Below are positions 23,540 to 28,435 of a DNA stretch of 64,000 nucleotides, one piece after another. The notes beneath the pieces were generated by a model that was given only the letters and a program-made list of their open reading frames with translations, did no database searches and was not told where the DNA came from. The DNA lies in the NCBI RefSeq assembly GCF_014204935.1, contig NZ_JACHMJ010000001.1, positions 1,922,001 through 1,986,000 on the forward strand. The letters are read 5' to 3'. The position numbers were made by a program, and so were the translations under genes. Each line of letters begins with the position of its first letter. Within the stretch, counting starts at the first letter, position 1. Source of the DNA: Conyzicola lurida (GTDB lineage: Bacteria > Actinomycetota > Actinomycetes > Actinomycetales > Microbacteriaceae).

Positions 23540-23760
23540 CTCACTCCAGATCGGTCGGTCTGAACGAGGACGCCTTCCTTCGCAGGAACGCGCGGTACCA
23601 CCCCGCTTGCCGGTCGCTCACTTCGACAGGCTCAGTGACCGATCGACCGCTTGTTCTTTGGCTGTGACGGGCCAGTACCGGTCGGTTCTACTGGGGCCGA
23701 GGCCCGTTCTTCCGACGACTCCCCGGTGATGGCCGGATCGATGTCTGTGCGCCCATACTA
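23540..23760 (-). promoter_or_regulatory. isoleucine T-box riboswitch (translational type) upstream of ileS
   Basis: On the minus strand the leader has the actinobacterial ileS T-box landmarks in order. The specifier region GGCCATCACCGGGGAG has an ATC (Ile) triplet at 23731-23729, then GGAAGAAC. The T-box core GGGTGGTACCGCG follows, with TGGTACCGCG at 23600-23591, then GAAGGAAGG before the start-codon region. No terminator hairpin with a T run is seen, so it should act on translation by hiding the ribosome-binding site unless uncharged tRNA-Ile is bound. The stem between specifier and T-box carries a repeat element (see separate entry). Confidence 0.92.
23613..23643. repeat. REP-like interspersed element inside the T-box leader
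   Basis: The sequence contains CTTCGACAGGCTCAGTGACC, a small imperfect inverted repeat of a type scattered between genes in several high-GC actinobacteria. Here it forms the stem just before the T-box core: CGGTCACT pairs with the AGTGAGCGACCG side, loop GAGCCTGTCGA. Only one clear copy is in this window; a degenerate relative may be at 60577-60592. Confidence 0.55.
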
Positions 23761-23801: not shown

Positions 23802-23817
23802 ATGAGAGAACTCTCAT
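23802..23817. promoter_or_regulatory. palindromic operator candidate ATGAGAGAACTCTCAT
   Basis: A 7-bp inverted repeat around a central AA lies 41 bases before the ATG of the first secreted protein. Nearly the same palindrome (ATGAGAGCACTCTCAC) occurs at 27522-27537 at the other end of the gene cluster. A half-site TCTCATAACC (24544-24553) stands before the second secreted protein, compared with TCTCATCACC at 23812-23821 here. It could bind the response regulator encoded at 25321. Confidence 0.5.
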
Positions 23818-23857
23818 CACCCGCGCTCCCCCGGGCCGCCAGGAGGACACTGGATAC

Positions 23858-24538
23858 ATGCGCAGCGCCGTTATCACCGCCGCGACGGGGATTCTGCTGG
23901 CCGTCTCGCTTGCCGCCGGCGCGATCGGCGTCGCCCGGTCGATCACCCCAGTGGAGGACGGACGCGCGCTCGGCGGGGTCGAACCGATCGTCCTGGAGCC
24001 CACGCCCGTCGTGACCGCGGAGCCGTCGACGGCGGCCGCTGCCACCCCCTCGCCCCTGCCACCACCCGTGCCGGAGCCCGCTCCCGCGCCCGGTCCCGAG
24101 GCGGTTCCCGAGCCGGACCCCGCGCCCGCGCCCGTGCCCGTGCCCGCTGCTCCGGTGGATCCCGTGGTCGCCGTACCGTCGCCCGTCGTGCCGGCGCCCG
24201 TAGTTCCTGCTCCTGTATCGCCGGCCGCACAACCGCTGGCTCCCGACCCTGTGGTGGTCGAACCGCAGTCGCCGGAAGGGGTCGGCGATGAGTGGTCCGA
24301 CGATTCGCGCGACGACCGGAAGTGGGACGACGACGGTGGCTGGAACGGGCACGACGGCGAGCGGGCGTGGCACGAGGACACTGGCGACGGCGACTGGCAC
24401 GAGGGCGGTGGCGACGGCGGCTGGCACGACGAATCCGCCGCCGAGTGGGACGACGATTCGTCCGACGACGGGACGTGGGACGACGGCTCGTGGGACGAGG
24501 GAGAACACGGAGCGGCCTGGTCGGACGACGGCCATTAG
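23858..24538 (+). CDS. secreted Pro-rich protein with acidic Trp/His/Asp/Gly tail, unknown function
   Basis: A 226-residue protein: signal peptide or anchor (MRSAVITAATGILLAVSLAA), a ~100-residue Pro/Ala/Val spacer likely to span the cell wall, then a ~75-residue tail made of units such as WDDD, GGW, WHE and GDGDWHEGGGDGGWHD. The tail has many Asp/Glu, Trp and His residues, as expected for a metal-binding or cation-binding polymer; this is inference. AGGAGG precedes the ATG by 11 bases. The next gene encodes a protein with the same layout. Confidence 0.7.
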   Translation: MRSAVITAATGILLAVSLAAGAIGVARSITPVEDGRALGGVEPIVLEPTPVVTAEPSTAAAATPSPLPPPVPEPAPAPGPEAVPEPDPAPAPVPVPAAPVDPVVAVPSPVVPAPVVPAPVSPAAQPLAPDPVVVEPQSPEGVGDEWSDDSRDDRKWDDDGGWNGHDGERAWHEDTGDGDWHEGGGDGGWHDESAAEWDDDSSDDGTWDDGSWDEGEHGAAWSDDGH

Positions 24539-24643
24539 ATCTGTCTCATAACCCCGCGGAGTCCTTCCCCCGGCGATCGAGGCCGTTTCACAATGGCTGG
24601 AGTCACCCGAGAACCGGCTCCGGCCGAGTTGGGAGAGCCCCCG

Positions 24644-25288
24644 ATGAACGTGGGCAAGAAGTGGGCGGCGGTCGTCACCGGAATCGTCGGTGTCGGGCTG
24701 ATCGCCGGGGCGTCCATCGCCTCGATCAACTCGCACCAGCGAGAACCGCGCACCCAGAACGTCGGGGCGGCTGCGCACCCCGAGACCTGGCAGCGCATCA
24801 GCGGGCTCGCCACCGCTGCGGTCGCGGTGCCCCGGCAGATCGTCGAAGCCGAGCAGGCGGCTGCGGCGCAGGCGGCCGCGGCCGCACAGGCCCAGCGCGA
24901 TGCCGAGGCCGCGGCGGCTGCGGCGGCCGCCGCCGCAGATCCCCCGCCGGTTCCGACGGCGCGATCGAACGCCGGCCGCGCTCCGGCCGCGGCGGCACCA
25001 GCGCCTGCCGCACCCGCACCAGCACCAGCACCAGCAGCACCCGCCCCGGCTCCCGCCCCGGCTCCCGCTCCGGCTGCCCCGGCTCCCGCTCCTGCACCAG
25101 TCGCACCTGCGGCGCCGAAGCCCGTGCCCGCACCCGCACCCGCACCGGCCCCCGCCCCCGCGCCTCCCGATGACGGCAACGACGACAACTGGGGCGACCA
25201 CGACGGACACGGCGGCCACGACGGAGGATGGGACGGCGACGACGACGGGTCGCACGGTCGAGATGGCGACGGCGGTCGCCACCACTGA
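24644..25288 (+). CDS. secreted Ala/Pro-rich protein with Asp/His/Gly tail, unknown function
   Basis: A 214-residue protein starting MNVGKKWAAVVTGIVGVGLI (signal anchor). It continues with an Ala/Gln/Glu helix-forming part, a long (Ala-Pro)n spacer and a short C-terminal tail of Asp, Gly, His and Trp ending in GGRHH. The layout mirrors the preceding gene. The ATG at 24644 has GGGAG upstream and gives a clean signal peptide; the open frame extends to 24593 without better evidence. It converges on the response regulator gene. Confidence 0.7.
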   Translation: MNVGKKWAAVVTGIVGVGLIAGASIASINSHQREPRTQNVGAAAHPETWQRISGLATAAVAVPRQIVEAEQAAAAQAAAAAQAQRDAEAAAAAAAAAADPPPVPTARSNAGRAPAAAAPAPAAPAPAPAPAAPAPAPAPAPAPAAPAPAPAPVAPAAPKPVPAPAPAPAPAPAPPDDGNDDNWGDHDGHGGHDGGWDGDDDGSHGRDGDGGRHH

Positions 25289-25320
25289 CGGCGCGGCCCG
25301 TACCGGGCTGACGGTCCCCT

Positions 25321-25977
25321 CTATCGCAACCGGTAGCCCATCCCCCGCACGGTCTCGATTCGTTCCGCGCCGAACTTGGCGCGCAGGTAGCGCACGTAGA
25401 CGTCCACGACGTTGGATCCGGGGTCGAAGTCGAGGCCCCAGACACGGCTGAGCAGCTGTTCGCGGCTCAAGACCTGGTCGGGATGCGAGAGGAATTCCTC
25501 GGCGAGCGAGAATTCGCGCGCCGACAGGTCGATGACCACGCCGTTCACCGTGGCCCGTCGGGTCAGCGCGTCGAGGGTGAGGTCGCCACGGCTGAGCGTC
25601 GTCGTGACCTGAGCCGTGGCATCCCGCAGTCTGAGGCGCACGCGTGCGAGCAGTTCGTCGAACCGGAACGGCTTCGGAATGTAGTCGTTCGCGCCACCCT
25701 CGAGCCCGGCCACGGTGTCCTCGACCGAGGTGCGCGCCGTCAGCATGATGACCGGCAGCGTGAGCTTCTCGCCGCGGATGCGCCGCAACACCTCGAAACC
25801 GTCGAGGCCGCGAAGACCCACGTCGAGCAGTACGAGGTCGTGGTTGCCCGAGCGCACCTGCTGGAGCGCGTCGTTTCCGTCGACGACGACGGTAGTCGTG
25901 AATCCGGCGGCGCGCAGGCCCTTGTCGACGAACAGCGAGATCCGCTCTTCATCCTCGGCGATCAAGATGTTGCTCAC
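25321..25977 (-). CDS. OmpR-family response regulator
   Basis: A 218-residue two-domain regulator. The receiver domain has the acidic pocket (AEDEE near residue 8), the phospho-acceptor Asp in LVLLDVGL, the Thr in MLTART and the Lys in YIPKPF. The C-terminal winged helix ends RIETVRGMGYRLR. The GTG start overlaps the histidine kinase stop (GTGA). I infer it controls the neighbouring secreted proteins and perhaps the CDF transporter. Confidence 0.93.
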   Translation of the reverse strand: MSNILIAEDEERISLFVDKGLRAAGFTTTVVVDGNDALQQVRSGNHDLVLLDVGLRGLDGFEVLRRIRGEKLTLPVIMLTARTSVEDTVAGLEGGANDYIPKPFRFDELLARVRLRLRDATAQVTTTLSRGDLTLDALTRRATVNGVVIDLSAREFSLAEEFLSHPDQVLSREQLLSRVWGLDFDPGSNVVDVYVRYLRAKFGAERIETVRGMGYRLR

Positions 25978-27470
25978 GGCTCCTCAGTATCCTCGGTTTC
26001 GACGGCGACGCCGAGGGGTACCACCGGCAGGACGATGCCGAATCGCGACCCCCGGGGCGACGTCGACAGGCTGACCCGGCCGCCGTGCGCCTCGGCGATC
26101 GCACGCACGATCGGCAGACCCAGTCCGGACCCCCGGATGCCGCGGCCGGCGTCGGCGCGCCCGAACCGCTCGAAGATGCGGTCCTGCGCCTCGACGGGGA
26201 TGCCCGACCCGCGGTCGGCGACCCAGAACTCCACCGTCGCGTCTCCCCCGGTGCTGCCGACGTCGATGCGTGATCCGGCCGGCGAGTACTTGGCCGCGTT
26301 GTCGACGAGCTGCAGCCAGGCCTGGGTGACGCGGCCGGGGTCCAGAGCCATGCTCAGGTGCGCCGACCCCGTGAGCACCCACTCGTGGTCGGGCACGACG
26401 CTCGCCTTCGCGAAGACCTCGGCGGTCAGGTCGGCGACGTCGGTCGGGGTCCTGGCAAGGGTCATCCGCTGGGAGTCGGTGAGCGACTCGATGTCGTCGA
26501 CCAGCCGGGCCATGCGGTCGAGTTCGTCGATCGCTAGCGCCTTGGTGGCTTCCACCTCGGCGGTGTCGCTCGGGTCGAGCAGCTCGAGGTGGCCGCGCAC
26601 GATCGTGATCGGCGTCGCGAGCTCGTGCCGCACGTCGTCGAGCAGCTGGCGTTGGCCGGTCATCGACGCGTCGAGCCGGTCTAGCATGCCGTTGACCGTC
26701 GCGGTGAGAGAGGAGATGTCGTCGCGCCCGACCACCGGGATGCGCTCTTTGCGGTCGCTCGCGGTGATCCGCGAGGCCGCGTCGCCGAGCTGCCGCAACG
26801 GGCGCAGCAGCCGTCCGGCGACGAACCAGCCGACGAGCCCGATCGCGACGAGGGTGATGGCCGCGACGAGGGCGTAGGTACTGAAGGCGTCGCGCAGTTC
26901 CTCGAGTTCGGCGTCGACGTCGACCGCGGCCACGTAGATCGCGCGGGCCGGGTCGTCCTCGACGCCGATCGGCGCCGCGACGTACCGCACCGTGCCGCCG
27001 GGCCGTACGTCCGTGCCGATGAAGACCGCGCCATCCTCGGTCTCTGCCACGACCCTGTCGACGAATCCGTCGTCGTCTTCGAGGTGGAACGAGGTATCGA
27101 CACCCGGCACGAGCGTGGCGACGCCGTCGATGATGCCGAGGGCGCTCTCGTTGCGCCCGGGGATGATGCGGGCGAGCACCGCCTCGAGTGCCTCGCCGGT
27201 CGACGCGAACCCGGGGGTGTCGTCGGCGTCGGCGGGGTCCGGCTGGGTCGTGACGGCGTCGGATTCGCCGGTGACGATGAAGCGGGCCGACTCGACGTGG
27301 GCGAGCAGCAGGTCGTCGATGTCGCTGTGGATGCGGTCGCGCTGCACGAGGAACGACGTCGCCCCCGCGACCGCCATGCCGATCGACGCCACGAGCAGGA
27401 TCGAGGCCAGGATGCGCGAGCGCACCGACCACCGCGGCACGCGGATGCGACGCGATCTCGTCGATCTCAT
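25974..27470 (-). CDS. sensor histidine kinase
   Basis: A 498-residue kinase: basic N-terminus, membrane helix ~19-41, an extracytoplasmic sensor of about 160 residues rich in Asp/Glu, a second helix (ALVAAITLVAIGLVGWFVAG), then HAMP. The phosphorylated His is in DVRHELATPITIVRGH, N box in QLVDNAAKYSP, G boxes in DRGSGIP and GSGLGLPI. I chose the ATG at 27470: CATACT lies 6 bases upstream (27482-27477) and the longer open frame adds no signal. The gene precedes its regulator and is divergent from the CDF gene. Confidence 0.92.
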   Translation of the reverse strand: MRSTRSRRIRVPRWSVRSRILASILLVASIGMAVAGATSFLVQRDRIHSDIDDLLLAHVESARFIVTGESDAVTTQPDPADADDTPGFASTGEALEAVLARIIPGRNESALGIIDGVATLVPGVDTSFHLEDDDGFVDRVVAETEDGAVFIGTDVRPGGTVRYVAAPIGVEDDPARAIYVAAVDVDAELEELRDAFSTYALVAAITLVAIGLVGWFVAGRLLRPLRQLGDAASRITASDRKERIPVVGRDDISSLTATVNGMLDRLDASMTGQRQLLDDVRHELATPITIVRGHLELLDPSDTAEVEATKALAIDELDRMARLVDDIESLTDSQRMTLARTPTDVADLTAEVFAKASVVPDHEWVLTGSAHLSMALDPGRVTQAWLQLVDNAAKYSPAGSRIDVGSTGGDATVEFWVADRGSGIPVEAQDRIFERFGRADAGRGIRGSGLGLPIVRAIAEAHGGRVSLSTSPRGSRFGIVLPVVPLGVAVETEDTEEP

Positions 27471-27502
27471 CGCCCCAGTATGGAGCGTGGCAGACTCGAC
27501 AA

Positions 27503-28435
27503 ATGGCTGCCAGCAAAACAAATGAGAGCACTCTCACCGTGCTGGTCGCCTTCGGGGCGAACCTGCTGATCGCGATCGCGAAATCGGTCGCGGCGCTGCT
27601 CACCGGGTCGGCGTCGATCGCCGCCGAGGTCGCGCACTCCTGGGCCGACACCGGCAACGAGATCTTCCTCTACGTGGCCGAGCGCAAGTCCGCCCGGGGC
27701 GCCGACGCCACGCACCCGCTCGGCTACGGACGCGAGGCGTACGTCTGGTCGATGTACGCGGCGTTCGGGCTGTTCGCCGCCGGCGCCGCCGTGTCGGTCT
27801 ACCACGGGGTGCAGAGCCTGCTCGATCCGGAACCCGCCAGCGACTGGGCGATCGCCTACGTCGTGCTCGGCGTCGCGTTCGTACTCGAGGGGGTGTCGTT
27901 CTTGCGCGCGTACAAACAGGCGCGCGAGACCGCGCGCGAGCAGCACACCGGCACCCTCAACGTCGTGCTCGAGAGCTCGAACCCGACCCTGCGCGCGGTC
28001 TTCGCCGAGGACGCCGCCGCCCTGATCGGCCTCGTCATCGCCTTCCTCGGCGTTCTGCTGCACCAGCTCACCGGGTCGCCCGTCTACGACGCGGTCGGCT
28101 CGATCCTCGTCGGCGTGCTGCTCGCGATCGTCGCTCTCGTGCTGATCAACCGCAACCGCCGCTTCCTCGTCGGGCAGGAGACCGACCCCGCCGTGTCCGC
28201 GAGCATGGTCGACTTCCTGAACGCCCGCACCGAGATCGAGCGCGTCACCTACCTGCACCTCGAGTTCGTCGGACCGAGCCGGGTCTTCCTCGTCGCGGCC
28301 GTCGACCTCGTCGGCAACGACACCGAGACGCACGTGGCGGTCGCGATGCGCGCGGTCGAGGCGGCGCTCGAGACCAATCCGCACATCGTCAAGGCCGTGC
28401 TCACCCTGTCGGCACCGGCCGACGCGTCGCTGTAG
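27503..28435 (+). CDS. cation diffusion facilitator (CDF) transporter, ZnT9-like
   Basis: A 310-residue membrane protein with six helices and a C-terminal cytoplasmic domain. Helix 2 carries the metal site HSWAD (HxxxD). Helix 5 has FAEDAAALIG, so the second His of the usual HxxxD site is replaced; this ED form is typical of the SLC30A9/ZnT9-like branch. It probably exports Zn or a similar divalent ion in exchange for protons. It is divergent from the histidine kinase by 32 bases. CAGACT lies 6 bases before the ATG, suggesting a leaderless mRNA. Confidence 0.9.
   Translation: MAASKTNESTLTVLVAFGANLLIAIAKSVAALLTGSASIAAEVAHSWADTGNEIFLYVAERKSARGADATHPLGYGREAYVWSMYAAFGLFAAGAAVSVYHGVQSLLDPEPASDWAIAYVVLGVAFVLEGVSFLRAYKQARETAREQHTGTLNVVLESSNPTLRAVFAEDAAALIGLVIAFLGVLLHQLTGSPVYDAVGSILVGVLLAIVALVLINRNRRFLVGQETDPAVSASMVDFLNARTEIERVTYLHLEFVGPSRVFLVAAVDLVGNDTETHVAVAMRAVEAALETNPHIVKAVLTLSAPADASL
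27522..27537. promoter_or_regulatory. second copy of the ATGAGAG-CTCTCA palindrome, in the CDF 5' coding end
   Basis: ATGAGAGCACTCTCAC lies 19 bases after the A of the CDF start codon and matches 14 of 16 bases of the palindrome at 23802-23817. If the CDF mRNA is leaderless, this is position +20 to +35, a possible repressor or regulator site. Confidence 0.4.

Follow-up and report, generated by a model that had tools for sequence, protein, structure and literature searches.

The WalKR system of Firmicutes, in which two accessory proteins anchored in the membrane, YycH and YycI, stimulate the kinase WalK (PMC7355866), is the nearest working analogy for a group of actinobacterial genes which we describe here from a 64,000-nucleotide stretch of Conyzicola lurida contig NZ_JACHMJ010000001.1 (hereafter the window). 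The group consists of two genes for small exported proteins with acidic tails (TAIL1 and TAIL2, assigned to what we call families A and B), a response regulator and a sensor histidine kinase, with a cation diffusion facilitator (CDF) exporter gene alongside; an earlier note on this DNA had predicted five such genes at 23802-28435, and all of them were found there on the expected strands. The outer domain of WalK is PDC/Cache-like, and that of the window kinase is predicted to resemble it, but the window kinase scores 141.6 bits vs. the NCBIfam WalK cut-off of 725, and the tail proteins, unlike YycH and YycI, are low-complexity stalks with acidic tails that fall into no Pfam family. Because the WalK cut-off is missed, the resemblance is one of analogy and not of membership. 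Systems of the CusS/CzcS type supply the best NCBIfam hits (cztS_silS_copS and cztR_silR_copR) and a fold match of the sensor to CusS, but the scores are below cut-off and the sensors of the window's family have no conserved histidine or cysteine. Further, LacI-type operators of CelR/CebR share the outer half-sites TGAGAG/CTCTCA with the palindrome discussed below, but differ in their GCGC centre and in serving sugar-transport genes. MacRS of Streptomyces coelicolor controls genes for membrane proteins by way of a consensus site (PMC10345050), and sco5282/5283 was set aside as a different system, the kinase of which has an outer loop of four residues (PMC6629963). CutRS was a further candidate considered, from literature listings. 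Full-text literature searches, judged by titles and the opening of abstracts, found no described system with this set, in line with the earlier note; as most subscription papers lay outside the scope of the search, this is weak evidence that none exists.

The counts of family and distant loci given here (L numbers denote loci) are based on the best 80 loci listed from a scan of named genomes with the kinase; the first 44 make up what we call the family, and the remaining 36, whose matches fall mostly in the kinase core, served as distant controls. A tree was built from 86 regulators (L043 dropped as a duplicate of L059, and hits shorter than 190 residues or with stops excluded), and in it a branch supported at 100/97 separated the 58 family rows from the 28 distant rows. 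An automatic rule, defining a tail-type open reading frame (ORF) as short, with a hydrophobic N-terminus and a proline-containing, arginine-poor body, detected 42 such ORFs near the kinase or regulator in 31 of the 44 family loci, whereas the 36 distant loci contained none anywhere, so that the contrast may partly reflect composition. Within the family loci, the density of these ORFs was 0.163 per kb near the two genes vs. 0.018 per kb farther away (5 ORFs). Inspection by eye makes no fewer than five of the 42 questionable (L061 5314, L066 5192, L084 1877, L093 4147 and L099 9107, that of L084 being antisense to a real one), and real tail ORFs were overlooked by the rule in L059, L073, L077 and L087, as was the family B gene of L099. 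In a number of family loci (e.g. L057, L072, L073, L079 and L084) the stretch stops near the kinase, and neighbors may have been missed there. The co-occurrence that the earlier note proposed to check is conserved as far as the tail genes, kinase and regulator are concerned, while the linkage of the CDF gene is not. The comparison supports the view that the tail proteins, the kinase and the regulator form a conserved unit sharing a putative operator, and in many actinobacteria the tail genes and the two-component pair are probably controlled jointly.

In 12 loci, from Rothia, Arthrobacter, Glutamicibacter, Yaniella, Isoptericola, Cellulosimicrobium, Brevibacterium and Aeromicrobium, the family A gene lies directly upstream of the kinase gene, and in all 12 the distance from its stop to a possible in-frame kinase start is between -19 and +27 bp. 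Two loci, L091 and L100, combine family A upstream of the kinase with a palindrome-bearing family B gene downstream. An Arthrobacter assembly contains a family B gene with a broken frame (L077 7800-8195).

As the earlier note had claimed, exact copies of one palindrome mark both ends of the block. The sequence TGAGAGNNCTCTCA occurs four times in the 3.64-Mb genome (G000), twice within the five-gene block and twice, 66 bp apart and with a GCGC centre, upstream of the gene for a sugar-type ABC transporter solute-binding protein; the latter pair (L008) are likely LacI-type sites. When the core TGAGA-N4-TCTCA was searched for with at most one mismatch, the window yielded three matches, all inside the block, preceding TAIL1 (exact), TAIL2 (one mismatch) and the kinase (exact). 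Three or more such matches were also obtained in 11 of 100 shuffles, the count by itself being weak, and the claim is therefore carried by the comparison with relatives. There, the exact core was found at 32 sites in 22 of the 44 family loci and at none in the 36 distant loci, and eight control patterns (reversed, everted, shuffled or with another spacer) gave 0-1 sites. Both the palindrome and its positions are conserved: 20 of the 32 sites lie 34-112 bp upstream of a tail gene and two upstream of the kinase, the remaining assigned ones preceding DUF4956 (two), phosphotransferase-like (two), adenosine deaminase (one) and PIG-L (one, L090) genes, with the target genes assigned from a list chosen by hand. 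Moreover, a site with at most one mismatch was present in 12 of 52 kinase promoters, including those of the congener G003 and four Microbacterium, vs. 2.7% of 3,000 random stretches from the same loci. For the palindrome that lies upstream of the kinase and inside the CDF frame of the window, a role at the kinase promoter is the better supported one. The MacRS box, reportedly TGAGTAC-N2-GTACTCA, resembles the palindrome of the window.

Some sites lead away from the tail genes. In G000 and the congener G002, an exact site stands out as a conserved island within diverged DNA, some 45 bp past glnE and at a distance of about 0.5 kb from the surface-polymer-like operon that it precedes; the operon, containing glycosyltransferase, GH26-like and UDP-glucose dehydrogenase genes, may make an acidic polysaccharide. 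Pairs of VTC-DUF4956-like genes are convergent with the regulator gene in L079 (2838-4420), L083 (8154-9745) and L088 (8108-9528); the palindrome precedes the DUF4956(-VTC) genes of L079 and L083, L088 having no exact site, and the VTC and DUF4956 domains were scanned for in L083 alone. A literature listing on VTC/DUF4956 contained no paper on such regulation. A palindrome also stands shortly upstream of an aminoglycoside-phosphotransferase-like gene near the two-component locus in L053 (2803), L087 (10161) and L100 (10436), the protein of L100 having a Pfam APH domain and that of L087 a similar start and no Pfam hit. L070 3522-5770 holds four consecutive family B genes and two palindrome pairs (20 bp apart); an extra palindrome lies upstream of an adenosine deaminase gene of this locus. 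In three Microbacterium-type loci (L068 5469, L078 5144 and L082 8243) the palindrome lies between the regulator and a PhoH-like gene; no tail gene is evident in these loci, and the target has possibly been lost. Further single sites, left unassigned, occur in G000 at 1792670 and 2342635, and several more, with no kinase close by, in hand-picked genomes. Remote from the two-component genes, a palindrome stands about 100 bp upstream of a gene for a secreted protein with Asp runs (L156 2932-3736, G044:C4), and this gene is a candidate for a target at a distance.

Residue counts bore out the acidic tails ascribed to both proteins of the window, the last 40 residues containing 15 Asp/Glu, three His and five Trp in TAIL1 and 13 Asp/Glu, six His and two Trp in TAIL2. 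Neither protein was hit in a Pfam profile search, nor TAIL2 in an NCBIfam search, and for TAIL1 no second match was found in its own genome at E 0.001. Tracing tail homology by sequence search alone was tried and rejected: TAIL2 has matches (E 0.001 or better; the best beyond the window, 1e-10) in 24 of 60 genomes searched, and as these resemble generic Pro/Ala-rich proteins, the tail genes were traced by position, layout and operator instead. The 24 family A proteins chosen by hand have a membrane or signal segment, after which most show a short hydrophobic motif (e.g. PIVVT, PIVLEPT); a stalk of Pro, Ser and Thr comes next, and the proteins end as a rule in an Asp tail. The last 40 residues are strongly acidic (at least eight Asp/Glu) in 19 of the 24; His is absent there in 14 and present three or more times in three. 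The 17 family B proteins, likewise chosen by hand, often start with KR-x-x-W-I-x-x-G-x-L-G and end in Asp, Gly/His or SPASP-type repeats, with six tails strongly acidic and 11 devoid of His in the last 40 residues.

The kinase exceeds the Pfam cut-offs for HAMP, HisKA and HATPase_c, and the regulator those for Response_reg and Trans_reg_C. A structure model of the kinase had a mean predicted local distance difference test score (pLDDT) of 85.2; modelled alone, the sensor reached 91.5 and consists of a PAS-like sheet between long helices. Fold comparison of the sensor with VIA-align gave Z scores up to 11.4, with Z 10.8 for the WalK outer domain (root-mean-square deviation 3.7 over 130-133 residues), followed among Cache-like matches by TlpB, KinD, CusS (Z 8.7) and CitA. 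With Foldseek the sensor had no match at E 0.001 or better, and the whole kinase matched mainly kinase cores. The sensor may have a PDC/Cache-like fold, although likeness of fold by itself establishes no function. In an alignment of 36 sensors, Cys hardly occurs and His fails to reach 30% of the rows in any column; where charged residues are conserved, they are either acidic or Arg. Coordinates are collected in Table 1.

Table 1. Features of the five-gene block in the window and an operon with an upstream palindrome elsewhere in the genome.
Feature	Position	Strand	Remarks
TAIL1	23858-24538	+	226 amino acids; family A, small, exported or anchored; Pro-rich stalk, Asp/Trp/His/Gly tail
TAIL2	24644-25288	+	214 amino acids; family B, small, exported; Ala/Pro-rich stalk, Asp/His/Gly tail
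Response regulator, OmpR/PhoB-type	25321-25977	-	GTG start; presumed binder of the palindrome
Sensor histidine kinase	25974-27470	-	ATG start; domain profiles and structure model
Kinase extracellular sensor part with flanking helices	26853-27365	-	predicted PDC/Cache-like fold; model and fold comparison
CDF cation exporter	27503-28435	+	CDF profile; probably outside the conserved module
Operator-like palindrome TGAGAGAACTCTCA	23803-23816		41 bp upstream of TAIL1; core kept before tail genes of relatives
One-mismatch operator TTAGATCTGTCTCA	24535-24548		overlaps the TAIL1 stop; 95 bp upstream of TAIL2
Operator-like palindrome TGAGAGCACTCTCA	27523-27536		52 bp before the kinase start (spanning 53-66 bp upstream of it); within the first CDF codons
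Glycosyltransferase / GH26-like / UDP-glucose dehydrogenase operon	L159 6285-11630 (G000:C1 about 1676284-1681630)		site upstream, also in G002

TAIL2 has an alternative in-frame ATG at 24593. Divergent from the TAIL1 promoter, a candidate T-box leader (23563-23750, minus strand) lies upstream of ileS; it scores 31 bits (E 3.5e-5), under the Rfam gathering score of 93, and is conserved in part in G002.

Taken together, we favor with moderate confidence an envelope two-component system in which the regulator would work through TGAGA-N4-TCTCA sites, family A proteins would assist the kinase or feed back on it, and family B proteins would be the secreted products; our confidence is higher for the regulon and lower for the accessory role of family A. 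The kinase would sense an extracellular condition, presumably the state of the envelope or of surface charge, via its predicted PDC/Cache-like domain and phosphorylate the regulator, which would bind the palindromes upstream of the tail genes and also, in many Microbacteriaceae, the one upstream of its own kinase-regulator operon. Family A proteins, anchored or cleaved after export, would carry their acidic tail on the Pro-rich stalk into or through the wall and would most likely be an accessory or feedback partner of the kinase, presumably in contact with it, whereas family B proteins would be regulated secreted outputs; in some lineages, surface-polymer genes may have joined the regulon. Several observations weigh against this proposal. 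In the window itself the kinase does not share an operon with TAIL1, the automatic rule found no tail ORF in 13 of the 44 family loci, 22 of the 44 lack an exact site, and four of the 32 sites have no assigned gene. The distant control loci are loosely matched, with G+C above 0.6 in 15 of the 36 and below it in 21, many of these loci being from Bacillota. Finally, tail composition is variable, 11 of the 17 family B tails not being strongly acidic.

The last point also counts against a possible, though less probable, account in which the tails are pure output, i.e. surface polyanions or wall spacers with no action on the kinase, and the system tunes them, along with acidic polysaccharide or VTC-type polyphosphate genes, for surface charge or ion buffering. 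The palindromes upstream of tail genes, of the polysaccharide-type operon in two congeners, of DUF4956-VTC genes in two loci and of PIG-L would all be expected on this account, as would the acidity of most family A tails, but the overlapping or nearly overlapping frames of family A and kinase in the 12 loci fit a partner better than a bulk output. We regard as rather unlikely a further reading, in which family A is a dedicated co-receptor and what the kinase reads is not a small ligand but an electrostatic probe on a tether; here the membrane segment, with its short conserved motif, would dock on the kinase, the disordered Pro stalk would cross the wall, and the poly-Asp/Trp tip would sample surface charge, ions or cationic compounds.

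The earlier note had taken the block for a candidate metal-handling module, with tails that could bind metal, a kinase that senses it and a CDF pump that exports it, and this now appears very improbable. The CDF gene is genuine by profile (116.8 bits vs. the CDF superfamily cut-off of 82.35, and 121.5 vs. 26.6 for Pfam Cation_efflux), and in G000, G002 and G005, which are congeneric, it lies next to the kinase, with a palindrome at the shared start region; TAIL2 adds the six histidines noted above, and the fold matches include the sensors of CusS and CzcS. However, at E 1e-60 or better the kinase was found in 17 of the 60 genomes (including the window's own) and CDF orthologues in 22, with both in seven, where 6.2 are expected by chance; in the other four of these seven, the two genes are about 1 Mb (G003) or 2 Mb (G012) apart or on different contigs (G030 and G049). 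Among the 44 family loci, only the stretch of L060 includes a CDF gene, beyond tail, GntR and DUF1648 genes, and the CDF gene looks like a chance neighbor. Likewise, kinase (169.1 vs. 292.55 bits for cztS_silS_copS) and regulator (199.7 vs. 279.2 for cztR_silR_copR) miss the heavy-metal cut-offs, His and Cys are not conserved in the sensor, and in the tails His is rare while Asp is kept. The acidic tails may still bind Ca or Mg. Least credible of all is a LacI-type sugar regulator as owner of the palindrome, whose presence at both ends of the block would then be coincidence: TGAGAGCGCTCTCA is a CelR-like site, by inference, in another actinobacterium (PMC3377646), and two GCGC-centred copies precede the sugar-transporter gene in the C. 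lurida genome, but we rejected such an owner for the palindromes of the two-component loci, as the GCGC centre is missing from all 32 family sites and the sites track the kinase/regulator family over many actinobacterial families, with none near the 36 distant kinases.

In terms of the envelope system proposed here, one odd locus leads to a predicted regulon whose operator is sharply defined; this operator, the partner gene adjoining that of the kinase and a small target set allow direct tests. It also draws attention to exported proteins of two kinds, lacking annotation and found repeatedly, in Microbacterium, Arthrobacter, Rothia, Cellulosimicrobium and Actinomyces among others. If the tail proves to be part of the sensor, it would represent an unusual way of sensing the state of the outer wall.

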